This document shows, in pieces, positions 37,615-42,263 of a stretch of 42,531 bases of DNA (positions within the stretch are counted from its first letter, which is position 1; every line of letters begins with the position of its first letter). The notes beneath the pieces are model-generated. The model saw nothing but the letters and a program-made list of their open reading frames with translations, did not search any database and was not told the origin of the DNA. A program made the translations under genes and the position numbers. This DNA comes from a virus: IMG/VR virus record IMGVR_UViG_3300037245_000614, positions 1-42,531 of that record. One strand, given 5' to 3'.

Positions 37615-38343
37615 TTACATTCCAAGTCTTCGTTTTTTACCTTCTTCGATACCCGCTCTGTAAGCTGCAAATATGTCAAGATGGTCCGTTATGTGATAAT
37701 GATGACAAATTACATCCGGGTCCACAAATATAGTATACCCTGCTTTTCGTATCTTGTCACTAAAAAAATAATCTTCTGACTCAATTTGTTGGGTAATGTC
37801 CTCGTTAAAGGTAGATTTCTGGTAAGGTGGGGTAAGTTTCTCCAGAACATCCCGCCGTATCAGTAAGGTAGTGCCGCCGACTCTTTTGGCTTTAAATAGC
37901 TTTTTCGGCAGCTCGTCGATACCGAGTACACTCATATTATCAGGCTCGTCCGGGTCATCCAGGACTACCGACCACATACATCGAAGCTCCTCAGCTTTAC
38001 GGACTATCGGCGTTACACCGGCGACTACGGCCTTGTTATGTCGCAATAACGTCTCAATCGCGTAATCGTTCATCGGGACCGTATCAGCGTCTATAAAGAA
38101 TATATGCGTCTTTTTAGCGTGTTCCGGGTCCGTCAAGAATTTCTTAATAGCTGTATTGCGACCAACTTCCGGGAGCTTCGTAGGTGGGTTGTAGACCTCG
38201 CCGATACCACGCTGGAAAGCCTTCATAATCCACTGACTACACCGCTCGTCGGTCTGATACTCGATATTATGGGGCTTAACGATCAGGACGGTAGCCTGTT
38301 TCGATGGTGCTCTTTTTCTAGTCTTTTGCTTCTTTTTGCTCAT
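37615..38343 (-). CDS. Glycosyltransferase, GT-A fold, with DxD motif
   Basis: A 242-residue protein with a very basic N-terminus (SKKKQKTRKRAPSKQ). A GT-A core follows with IFFIDADTVPMND (DxD at 85-87) for nucleotide-sugar and metal binding. Later motifs include VGGTTLLIRRDVLEKL and SEDYFFSDKIRKAGY, with FVDPDVICHHYHI at the end. It probably transfers a sugar onto a glycan or protein; the donor is unknown. It is the last gene of the glycan module, next to the scaffold gene. Confidence 0.82.
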   Translation of the reverse strand: MSKKKQKTRKRAPSKQATVLIVKPHNIEYQTDERCSQWIMKAFQRGIGEVYNPPTKLPEVGRNTAIKKFLTDPEHAKKTHIFFIDADTVPMNDYAIETLLRHNKAVVAGVTPIVRKAEELRCMWSVVLDDPDEPDNMSVLGIDELPKKLFKAKRVGGTTLLIRRDVLEKLTPPYQKSTFNEDITQQIESEDYFFSDKIRKAGYTIFVDPDVICHHYHITDHLDIFAAYRAGIEEGKKRRLGM

Positions 38344-38586
38344 TTACGCCGCTTCCTTTAGCCAGTATCCGGCTATCGTCCTGAGTGCTTCGCTCATCTT
38401 GCTTGATAATTCTATCTTTGGCAATTCTGGGTGTAAATTATTAAACTCCGCATTACAGGTTTTTTCGCCTAAGTAACCCCATCCGTCGCCGAGTGCCCAA
38501 CGCATACATTTATGTTTATCTCTCATTGGAACGCCTGCGTCGGCTAATATTTTACAATAATCTTTTGCTAATTCTATAGTTATCAT
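38344..38586 (-). CDS. Tandem-duplicated small protein, copy 2
   Basis: An 80-residue protein clearly related to the preceding 81-residue gene. Shared features are YxKxLAxxGV, xxCMxWAxG(D/E)xW, a middle FNxxHxxLPxI and the end WLK(x)EAA. The pair differs enough to be an old duplication. No known family; it may be a partner of the neighbouring glycosyltransferases. Confidence 0.72.
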   Translation of the reverse strand: MITIELAKDYCKILADAGVPMRDKHKCMRWALGDGWGYLGEKTCNAEFNNLHPELPKIELSSKMSEALRTIAGYWLKEAA

Positions 38587-38832
38587 TTACGCCGCTTCCT
38601 TCATTTTTAACCAGTGTGTCGCCACTTTTTCAAGTCCTTGCTCGATCGTCATATCGCCGGTGATCTCCGGCAGGTCCGTATGAAAAGTATTCCACGAAAG
38701 ATGTATGAGCCTCACATCGATCATATCCCAGAACTCGCCAAACGCCCATTTCATGCACGCAATAGCGTTTTCTTTTGATACTCCATATTTAGCTAACATC
38801 TTTTCGTAGCCCAACTTACGCCACCTTTCCAT
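38587..38832 (-). CDS. Tandem-duplicated small protein, copy 1
   Basis: An 81-residue protein with YEKMLAKYGVSKENAIACMKWAFGEFW and FHTDLPEI, matched by the next gene at the same spacing. It overlaps the preceding glycosyltransferase by 17 bases and ends directly before its paralogue's start. No family is recognised. The Cys-Met-Lys/Arg-Trp-Ala core is the most conserved segment. Confidence 0.72.
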   Translation of the reverse strand: MERWRKLGYEKMLAKYGVSKENAIACMKWAFGEFWDMIDVRLIHLSWNTFHTDLPEITGDMTIEQGLEKVATHWLKMKEAA

Positions 38833-39972: not shown

Positions 39973-40641
39973 CTAAAATATCTCCGTATCAGGCCATTTT
40001 GTGCAGACTGCTATCATGCAATTTGCATCCGGTGAATCTGGCACTATATTGGCATAACGATCTACGCTGTAATAATCTATCATCGGGAAGTATTGACCGA
40101 GGGTATATTTGAACTCCTGGTAATACAATTCGTTTATGTGTCCTGGTCGCTTCTTAGTCGACTCCCTCGGGCGAAGGCGTGGCATTGATACGATGAATGT
40201 TCCACCTGGAGCTAAGACGTTGTCGTTAATATACTTCAATGCTTTGTGCATATCTTCATTATTAATATGCTCCATTGTCTCAAGACAAACGAACACAGCG
40301 ATTCCTGACGCGTCAAAGTCAAGGATGTTACCTACTTTATAATTAAGCAATTCGTCTTTGTAAGTGATGATCGCTTTGGCTATAACGACTGGGTCTATGT
40401 CAACCCCGTAAACATAGTATCCAGTTTGTTCGGCAAGGAACGCCGAGCCGGCCCCGTCACCGCAGGCACAGTCTATTATGGTGTCGCCGACCAAAGGAGT
40501 CGCCTCTTTGATCTTCTTCGCTGCGAAAGCGTACCTATTAAAGTACGTCTTTCTGGTGTAAGCGTTCGCTTTGCTGAGCACGATCCGATCATCCTTCGAT
40601 GACCAGTCTTCGTCAGTTAAATTTTGTACGTTGTTTTCCAT
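39973..40641 (-). CDS. SAM-dependent class I methyltransferase
   Basis: A 222-residue methyltransferase with motif I DTIIDCACGDGAGSAFLA, an acidic SAM-ribose residue in YGVDIDP, motif around IAVFVCLETMEHIN and FIVSMPRLRPRE. The form is that of small-molecule or sugar methyltransferases such as those acting in polysaccharide synthesis rather than DNA methyltransferases. It stands between LicD-type and GT2 genes, so a glycan or glycan-linked acceptor is likely. The start is the ATG at 40639-40641. Confidence 0.85.
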   Translation of the reverse strand: MENNVQNLTDEDWSSKDDRIVLSKANAYTRKTYFNRYAFAAKKIKEATPLVGDTIIDCACGDGAGSAFLAEQTGYYVYGVDIDPVVIAKAIITYKDELLNYKVGNILDFDASGIAVFVCLETMEHINNEDMHKALKYINDNVLAPGGTFIVSMPRLRPRESTKKRPGHINELYYQEFKYTLGQYFPMIDYYSVDRYANIVPDSPDANCMIAVCTKWPDTEIF

Positions 40642-41844
40642 TTATCCCGCTTTCGCAACTTTACCCTTTATCGGGGTACGCCAGGTGTCGCCATATTGTT
40701 TTAATAGTAATTTCTTCGGCTCCTTCGGCACGTCAAACTTCTCGCCAAGGAACATTATTTTTTCCGTTTCCGCCAGCCTATGATTCTCGATGTAAACGCC
40801 GTTGCAATGGCGACTATTGCCATCGTCCTTAAACCTGTAGAAGTCGATGTACTCGCCGTCTCGCATTACCGTAACAAGCAGGTCTATTTGAGTCCTTACG
40901 ATCTCAAACCCTCTGCTCTCCAGTTTCTCCAGGGCAAGGCAGAGTGGGTCAAAGTCTTCTTTGAATATACCTACGTCCGTATCGTGGTCGTGGGCTATAA
41001 AGTTTTCTTCCCTCACTGCACCGAGAAGCGTGCCGAACGATAACCAGAATTTCAAACCGGCCTCGTCGCAACATTCTTTGCAGTCCAGGAGGTTGGCTCT
41101 GGAAACGTCAATATCAATACACTTGCCGCCCCTCTCAGTAAATGACCTTGATGGAGGTATGCCGTATTCTATTCTGTCCCTAACACTGGTCATGGCCGCT
41201 ATCTTTCTTGATCTGGTTTTATGAAGCTGTTCGTCGTGACCCCATGCAGCCTGATTCGTCGCATACAATAAGTCGTTATGTTTTCGCCACTCATGCTTAA
41301 CGATAACATCATCAATAAAAACACATTTGCCTATCTTGTAGACAATGTTCGTAAACTCAGTATCGCAGAAAAAACTTTTGTAACCTGGATAATATATATA
41401 ACCAAAACTATCATACAGTTTTTTACCCATGATCGACAAGGTTATCAAGGACTTGCCGCCGTGGCAACCATCCGGGTAATGCAGTGCTCCGTCAAGGTCC
41501 GGGAAATGCCTTACCATGTCGTTTACGATTATAGCGTCGTACCCGTCTACCTGGGGGACCATGTCATCAGAGACGAGGACGACTATGTCCCAGTTAGTAC
41601 ACACGTCCATATCTGCGTTACATGCGTCGATCTTTGTTTTATTGCTACCGAAGCGATATTGGACATTATTGAAACTGTCCATGAATTTCATCATCTCAAT
41701 ATTGTTCATTGTTTCATCGTCGATGTCGCAACTTATGACGAAAGCGAAATCATGCTCGCCGCTCAACATGGACTGCCATGCAGTAAGCGTCTTCTTAAAC
41801 CATTCTGGTCGTTGCCTGGTCGGGTATTTAAAAAGTATCTTCAT
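40642..41844 (-). CDS. Glycosyltransferase-LicD fusion protein
   Basis: A 400-residue two-domain protein. Residues about 1-235 form a GT-A-like domain starting LFKYPTRQRPEWF, with VVLVSDDMVP (92-95) as the metal-site segment and FFCDTEF/EWRKH later. Residues about 245-400 form a LicD/fukutin-type domain: FWLSFGTLLGAVREENFIAHDHDTDVGI (GTLLGAVR at 271-278, DHDTD metal site) and a closing QYGDTWRTP. LicD enzymes transfer phosphocholine or a similar phospho-alcohol from a CDP donor to sugars. The cytidylyltransferase immediately upstream could make that donor. Its start overlaps that gene by four bases. Confidence 0.85.
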   Translation of the reverse strand: MKILFKYPTRQRPEWFKKTLTAWQSMLSGEHDFAFVISCDIDDETMNNIEMMKFMDSFNNVQYRFGSNKTKIDACNADMDVCTNWDIVVLVSDDMVPQVDGYDAIIVNDMVRHFPDLDGALHYPDGCHGGKSLITLSIMGKKLYDSFGYIYYPGYKSFFCDTEFTNIVYKIGKCVFIDDVIVKHEWRKHNDLLYATNQAAWGHDEQLHKTRSRKIAAMTSVRDRIEYGIPPSRSFTERGGKCIDIDVSRANLLDCKECCDEAGLKFWLSFGTLLGAVREENFIAHDHDTDVGIFKEDFDPLCLALEKLESRGFEIVRTQIDLLVTVMRDGEYIDFYRFKDDGNSRHCNGVYIENHRLAETEKIMFLGEKFDVPKEPKKLLLKQYGDTWRTPIKGKVAKAG

Positions 41845-42263
41845 GCAAACTCAGGCTCCACTCTTATCGATGATTGTATCTTGAACTGGATCGACCTGGT
41901 GCTTATACCCTTAGTTCTGGGTAAGTAGATCACAGGGCATGAAATGTCCGGGAGTCTTTGCTGCCAGTCGTCGCCGATAATAAACACGTCGAAGCCAAGC
42001 CGTTTACGCGTTATCTCGTGGTCGAGTATCTCGTTCGGGATAACATTGTGCACAAACGGTAGGCTGTTGACAATCTCGCATCTTTGCTCAAAACTGATTA
42101 CCGGGCCAACGTCCTTGAATTTTTCCATTGACTCTGAGGTGCTTACTCCGACGATCAATTTATCGCAGAGCTCGGCGGCCCGCTTAAGCAGTCTTAAATG
42201 TCCCACGTGGAACAAATCAAACGCTCCGGTCGTGTAGCCGAGTTGGTGTAGTTTATATTTCAT
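41841..42263 (-). CDS. Cytidylyltransferase, TagD/CTP:phospho-alcohol type
   Basis: A 140-residue cytidylyltransferase. The start is the ATG at 42261-42263, overlapping the upstream stop (ATGA). GYTTGAFDLFHVGH (9-22) holds the HxGH motif and RTKGIST near residue 116 is the second CTP-binding signature, as in glycerol-3-phosphate and phosphocholine cytidylyltransferases. It makes CDP-glycerol, CDP-choline or a similar donor; the exact substrate cannot be read. With the LicD fusion that follows it forms a donor-and-transferase pair. Small size is normal for the family. Confidence 0.9.
   Translation of the reverse strand: MKYKLHQLGYTTGAFDLFHVGHLRLLKRAAELCDKLIVGVSTSESMEKFKDVGPVISFEQRCEIVNSLPFVHNVIPNEILDHEITRKRLGFDVFIIGDDWQQRLPDISCPVIYLPRTKGISTRSIQFKIQSSIRVEPEFA

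Follow-up and report, generated by a model that had tools for sequence, protein, structure and literature searches.

What are glycan-type genes doing inside the head-gene operon of an uncultured tailed phage? The question is posed by the virus record IMGVR_UViG_3300037245_000614, analyzed over its whole 42,531 nucleotides (hereafter the window; coordinates refer to it unless another contig is named), in which a cytidylyltransferase, a fusion of glycosyltransferase (GT) and LicD domains, a methyltransferase and three further transferases are encoded among the genes for the portal, the scaffold and the major capsid protein (MCP). We lean towards the answer that this region is a late-expressed virion-glycosylation cassette, two of whose glycosyltransferases, GT204 and GT242, are under strong purifying selection.

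A glycan gene set between portal and scaffold

The two ends of the window carry 127 identical bases (a terminal repeat), and the genome is therefore closed at ~42.4 kb. This places the portal across the join and bears out the claim of the initial annotation that seven to eight glycan-type genes lie between portal and scaffold; we count eight, and the enzymes that it had named and the duplicated small gene were all found, on the minus strand with the other late genes. Up to the join these run in the order polysaccharide-deacetylase protein, terminase small-subunit candidate, terminase large subunit (TerL), portal and coiled-coil protein and, past it, continue in the following order (portal and coiled-coil protein are included for reference).

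675..2678, minus strand: portal protein (phrog_156, 5.7e-45), immediately preceding the cassette once the genome ends are joined
118..651, minus strand: 177-residue coiled-coil protein with a C-terminal CNxHPSK...CDCG motif (by alignment; single copy of 122 residues in relative L003)
42260..42517, minus strand: 85-residue partial duplicate of the 118-651 C-terminus (39% over 54 residues; absent from L003)
41841..42275, minus strand: cytidylyltransferase, accessory (PF01467, 2e-17; alternative start ATG 42263)
40642..41844, minus strand: GT+LicD fusion, accessory (phrog_14945, 1.3e-11; PF04991), with an N-terminal GT domain (residues ~1-220, nucleotides 41185-41844, phrog_14945) and a LicD domain (residues ~236-400, nucleotides 40645-41139, PF04991)
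39973..40641, minus strand: class-I S-adenosylmethionine-dependent methyltransferase of small-molecule type, accessory (PF13649, 42 bits)
39421..39972, minus strand: GT183, GT2-type glycosyltransferase (PF00535, 29.7 bits, cut-off 23.3; phrog_14775)
38816..39430, minus strand: GT204, glycosyltransferase, core (phrog_14945, 3.6e-10; likely real start ATG 39424)
38587..38832, minus strand: 81-residue all-helical small protein (model with a predicted local distance difference test score, pLDDT, of 89)
38344..38586, minus strand: 80-residue paralogue of the 81-residue protein (by sequence comparison)
37615..38343, minus strand: GT242, GT-A-type glycosyltransferase, core (PF13641, 29.4 bits, cut-off 27; phrog_1574)
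36752..37501, minus strand: head scaffolding protein, downstream border of the cassette (phrog_8865, E 0.0016; syntenic 63% homologue in L003)
35455..36723, minus strand: MCP (phrog_334; N4-gp56-like)

The cassette genes are co-directional and tightly packed, either overlapping by 4-17 nucleotides or abutting directly, and their products have no strong membrane segment (maximum KD19 1.33). An independently sampled contig (L002) holds the same virus with identical arrangement and proteins, which shows that the cassette is not an assembly chimaera. A scan of 36500-42531 for promoters and terminators returned counts near chance (14 against 9.1 ± 2.9 and 6 against 6.5 ± 2.6, respectively).

GT204 has no Pfam match and its AlphaFold model is of low confidence (mean pLDDT 38). 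Direct tblastn searches against cultured phages gave no match for either GT204 or GT242, and a single-sequence scan of viral contigs with GT242 returned the same virus only. The 81- and 80-residue genes are homologous (32% identical); the model of the 81-residue protein has no fold match in the PDB with E ≤ 1, and the single viral protein found to match it (A0A6J5LDH3, E 0.007) has no known function.

The core glycosyltransferases keep their place among the head genes

Comparison with two relatives separates the eight genes by age. In L003 (identity to the window 87% for MCP, 75-76% for the portal, 81% for GT204 and 71% for GT242), the order is portal, 122-residue coil, GT204, a single 76-residue small gene, GT242, scaffold and MCP, without the 85-residue gene, the cytidylyltransferase, the fusion, the methyltransferase or GT183. 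The more distant L108 (MCP 48%, portal 42%, TerL 51%, GT183 48%, GT204 44%, GT242 46%) has the order portal, a 69-residue gene, GT183, GT204, GT242, scaffold and MCP, and no homologue of the 81/80-residue small gene was found in it. GT204 and GT242 thus hold their site between portal and scaffold in each of the three lineage members with sequence there (window, L003 and L108), and the divergence of the glycosyltransferases between window and L108 (44-48% identity) is in line with that of MCP and portal. The eight genes had been read as one module: all are present, yet their ages are unequal, and the comparison divides them into core and accessory parts.

Between window and L003, the ratio of nonsynonymous to synonymous substitution rates (dN/dS) is 0.063 for GT204, 0.078 for GT242, 0.087 for MCP and 0.33 for the scaffold; since dS is high, near saturation, these ratios are approximate, but the two core enzymes are close to MCP and so constrained about as strongly as the capsid gene. 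Decay of the genes in relatives, a possibility raised at the outset, is not what we see for GT204 and GT242, which stand at the same site in both relatives under purifying selection.

We infer as the simplest history an ancestral GT183-GT204-GT242 trio from which GT183 was lost in L003, with the small gene gained and later duplicated; the cytidylyltransferase, fusion and methyltransferase would then have been inserted in the window phage behind the duplicated C-terminal part of the coiled-coil gene. The GT183 tree leaves the sister status of window and L108, and the order of events, unsettled. Elsewhere in the operon, TerL of the window (2680-4128) and of L003 (724-2091) share only ~29% across their C-terminal halves, despite the 75% portal identity, indicating that the terminase gene has been exchanged.

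Outside this lineage, glycosyltransferases at the portal-MCP junction are rare. Most of 59 loci with a related portal-MCP pair leave 0.8-1.4 kb between the two, enough for the scaffold only, while a few have gaps of 2.5-5.6 kb with other inserts; the variety of these inserts implies that the junction tolerates cassettes. A GT242-like gene lies just before MCP in L069 and just after it in L082. In L026, which has a related MCP, genes for a methyltransferase/GT protein, methyltransferases, LicD, a radical SAM protein and an epimerase (domain names other than LicD being read by eye from the sequence) lie beside MCP and a poly-Ser protein. This last protein, with ~200 nearly pure serine residues, is encoded between MCP and the glycan gene set (regions 10749-11870 and 12256-18671 of that contig) and is a candidate O-glycan acceptor.

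A probable accessory insertion pairs a cytidylyltransferase with a GT+LicD fusion

The cytidylyltransferase, fusion and methyltransferase together are probably a recent accessory insertion, whose upstream edge is marked by the 85-residue gene. Both this truncated duplicate (42260-42517) and its parent (118-651) carry the Cys/His motif CNxHPSK...CDCG, which may bind metal.

The cytidylyltransferase comes closest to glycerol-3-phosphate cytidylyltransferase (GCT). It matches the Bacillus subtilis enzyme TagD (1coz, 8.5e-21), which it resembles in size and in the GCT pattern HxGH, GDDW and RTxGIST (here HVGH, GDDW and RTKGIST); it misses the TIGR01518 equivalog cut-off (78.4 bits against 165), is thus a family relative, and for this reason we call it GCT-like rather than GCT. 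Cytidine diphosphate (CDP)-glycerol is our best guess at its product. CDP-ribitol is less likely, since the CDP-ribitol synthases that are known belong to the IspD type.

The fusion scores above the PF04991 gathering cut-off (49 bits against 22.6), and its GT half falls in the same phrog (14945) as GT204. In its LicD half the triad D286/D288/D290 aligns, in a loop alignment, with D360/D362/D364 of human FKRP, residues that are essential in that enzyme (PMC6965139), and D334 is a candidate counterpart of FKRP D416. The window protein thus shares with FKRP and Mycoplasma fermentans mf1 the LicD domain, the D-x-D-x-D triad and, by prediction here, a CDP-alcohol donor; it differs from them in being fused to a GT domain, and zinc-finger or stem regions were not identified in it. 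Direct tblastn against cultured phages gave no match for the fusion, a single-sequence scan of viral contigs returned the same virus only, and a scan of bacterial genomes found no relative. Among 48 related phage records LicD was found in that of L026 alone, so there is no phage-wide LicD cassette.

GT183 belongs to a wider phage family

GT183 matches actinobacteriophage glycosyltransferases, namely Yoshi gp114, Che8 gp108 (34% identity over the N-domain), Lucky2013 gp15 (35%) and Mareelih gp91 (36%). PMC12363180 documents glycosylated virions in Che8, Corndog and Myrna and describes Che8 gp110 as essential for capsid glycosylation; the mycobacteriophage work on Che8 gp108-110 and Corndog gp38 is that of Freeman et al (2023), as cited in PMC12363180, PMC12619734 and PMC11256854. 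Che8 gp108 is the first gene of the 108-110 GT cluster, and no match to gp110 was found. Shared with these systems are soluble phage glycosyltransferases in a short cluster and the GT183 homology; the window differs in its podovirus-like head genes, in the position of the cassette inside the head operon and in the additional cytidylyltransferase, LicD and methyltransferase. The Omegavirus Lucky2013 and the Gordonia phage Mareelih likewise carry a GT183 homologue and further glycosyltransferases within head/tail operons (Lucky2013 gp15 between MCP and head-to-tail adaptor with the others beside it, and Mareelih gp91 flanked by the adaptor and the tail chaperones), but the Lucky2013 cassette follows MCP and has a kinase, and neither phage has LicD or a cytidylyltransferase in its cassette.

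A scan of viral contigs yielded at least 518 GT183 relatives. In the 80 loci fetched (a redundant set), a homologue of the GT half of the fusion is present in 66 and abuts GT183 in 58. Neighbors in a 17-locus sample include FkbM methyltransferases (9 proteins), glycosyltransferases, sugar epimerases and NeuB, along with terminase, portal, major head, capsid, tail and baseplate genes and also DNA polymerase. Two GT183 copies lie ~0.8 kb apart in the very large phage contigs L136 (494 kb) and L138 (371 kb).

Virion proteins as the favored target

Under a virion-glycosylation reading, soluble GT183, GT204 and GT242 would act in the cytoplasm during head assembly and build up an oligosaccharide on at least one structural protein. 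The accessory fusion would extend the chain by one sugar and then transfer to it a phospho-alcohol whose CDP-donor the neighboring cytidylyltransferase would supply, and the methyltransferase may cap or trim the chain. Here we infer that a virion protein is the acceptor, as well as the order of the steps, the identity of the donor and the timing. The late, head-linked role proposed by the initial annotation is strengthened by the retention of two core enzymes at the site in two relatives and by the selection on them; the virion-protein target is still a prediction. Its further proposal, a pair of which one enzyme makes a CDP-alcohol and the other transfers the phospho-group, is plausible given a phage precedent of licD beside an ispD-family gene (PMC8008677), although the pair is confined to the window phage. 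That this phage makes its own CDP-glycerol or a similar CDP-alcohol, and that the fusion places a charged, teichoic-acid-like phospho-alcohol on a capsid glycan, is put forward tentatively, as a rather doubtful extension.

Several observations weigh against virion glycosylation. The cytidylyltransferase, fusion and methyltransferase are found in the window phage only (two near-identical contigs), and the substrate assigned to the first is putative. No Ser/Thr-rich tract stands out as an acceptor candidate among the window phage proteins. Che8 gp108, the GT183 homologue, is not the gene reported essential, and in large phages GT183 homologues also have genes of DNA metabolism for neighbors (DNA polymerase in L142), showing that the family does not depend on a virion-gene setting.

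The main rival, which we take seriously but judge the less probable, is a late change of host surface glycans (lipopolysaccharide, capsule, wall polymers) that would block superinfection or the re-adsorption of progeny to debris. The classical targets of LicD enzymes are glycans and lipids of the cell surface (PMC11982090), and Benler et al (2021; PMC8008677) read two phage gene sets in just this way: in Gratiaviridae, a GT/AAA/HipA-kinase set between portal and MCP (host capsule modification) and, in Flandersviridae, an adjacent licD and ispD-family pair (host-surface modification). The former resembles the window cassette in placing a GT between portal and MCP and differs in that this is a single GT with kinase and ATPase; the latter likewise sets a cytidylyltransferase-type nucleotidyltransferase beside LicD, but this is IspD-type instead of GCT-type, the pair lies in the replication module, and a GT fusion is not mentioned. 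The window phage itself encodes a polysaccharide-deacetylase protein, perhaps a spike, beside the terminase, which makes it probable that host polysaccharide is of importance to this phage. However, among the cassette genes we found neither a membrane GT nor a flippase nor a polyprenyl-phosphate enzyme, and the core glycosyltransferases follow the head genes in position and divergence.

It is improbable that the cytidylyltransferase, fusion and methyltransferase are transient cargo at a permissive junction and useless to the phage: they are absent from both L003 and L108, and varied inserts occupy the junction in several distant relatives, but their frames are intact in two samples with catalytic motifs kept, and they overlap their neighbors in the manner of a compact operon. 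DNA hypermodification, in which the glycosyltransferases would act on modified bases of phage DNA, is very improbable, for although phage enzymes of this kind can glycosylate modified bases (work cited in PMC12619734) and a C5-cytosine methyltransferase is encoded at 11247-12176, no dNMP hydroxymethylase, thymidylate-synthase-like enzyme or base kinase was found among the genes scanned (a set that takes in part of the small open reading frames), LicD and the cytidylyltransferase have no role in base modification, and the cassette sits in the head operon.

Other features of the genome

The MCP is at most 26% identical to those of cultured relatives (Paracoccus, Rhizobium and cyanobacterial phages), and this phage is therefore without a close cultured relative. 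Its description as virulent-looking finds slight support: no integrase was found in the part of the open reading frames scanned, the match of 118-651 to phrog_95 being rejected as a coiled-coil artefact. An NNDMF-type C-terminal tag is common to the PF01522 polysaccharide-deacetylase protein (4518-5795, upstream of the terminase), a LamG-like 309-residue protein (27649-28578) and a syntenic L003 open reading frame (1-321), and might serve as a shared anchor for spike or decoration domains that can be swapped. The 1882-residue protein at 21999-27647, where the structural genes end, has a stretch matching phrog_19458 "primase" (6e-39) and is probably an ejected polyvalent protein. A tRNA-like gene (20849-20923) was called with a four-base anticodon (taac), which could denote a frameshift-suppressing tRNA or an artefact.

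Implications

What appears to be new is the combination of a conserved glycosyltransferase core in a podovirus-type head operon with a GT+LicD fusion and an adjacent GCT-like enzyme. Virion glycosylation in phages has been documented in a few actinobacterial phages, mainly those of mycobacteria; if the reading favored here is true, its occurrence in an unrelated podovirus-type head operon would suggest that it is wider and evolves by added sugar or phospho-sugar steps, with the core conserved and the upstream part exchangeable. The eight-gene set is compact enough for reconstitution, and a GT+LicD fusion working with a CDP-donor enzyme would bring a charged phospho-group into the known chemistry.

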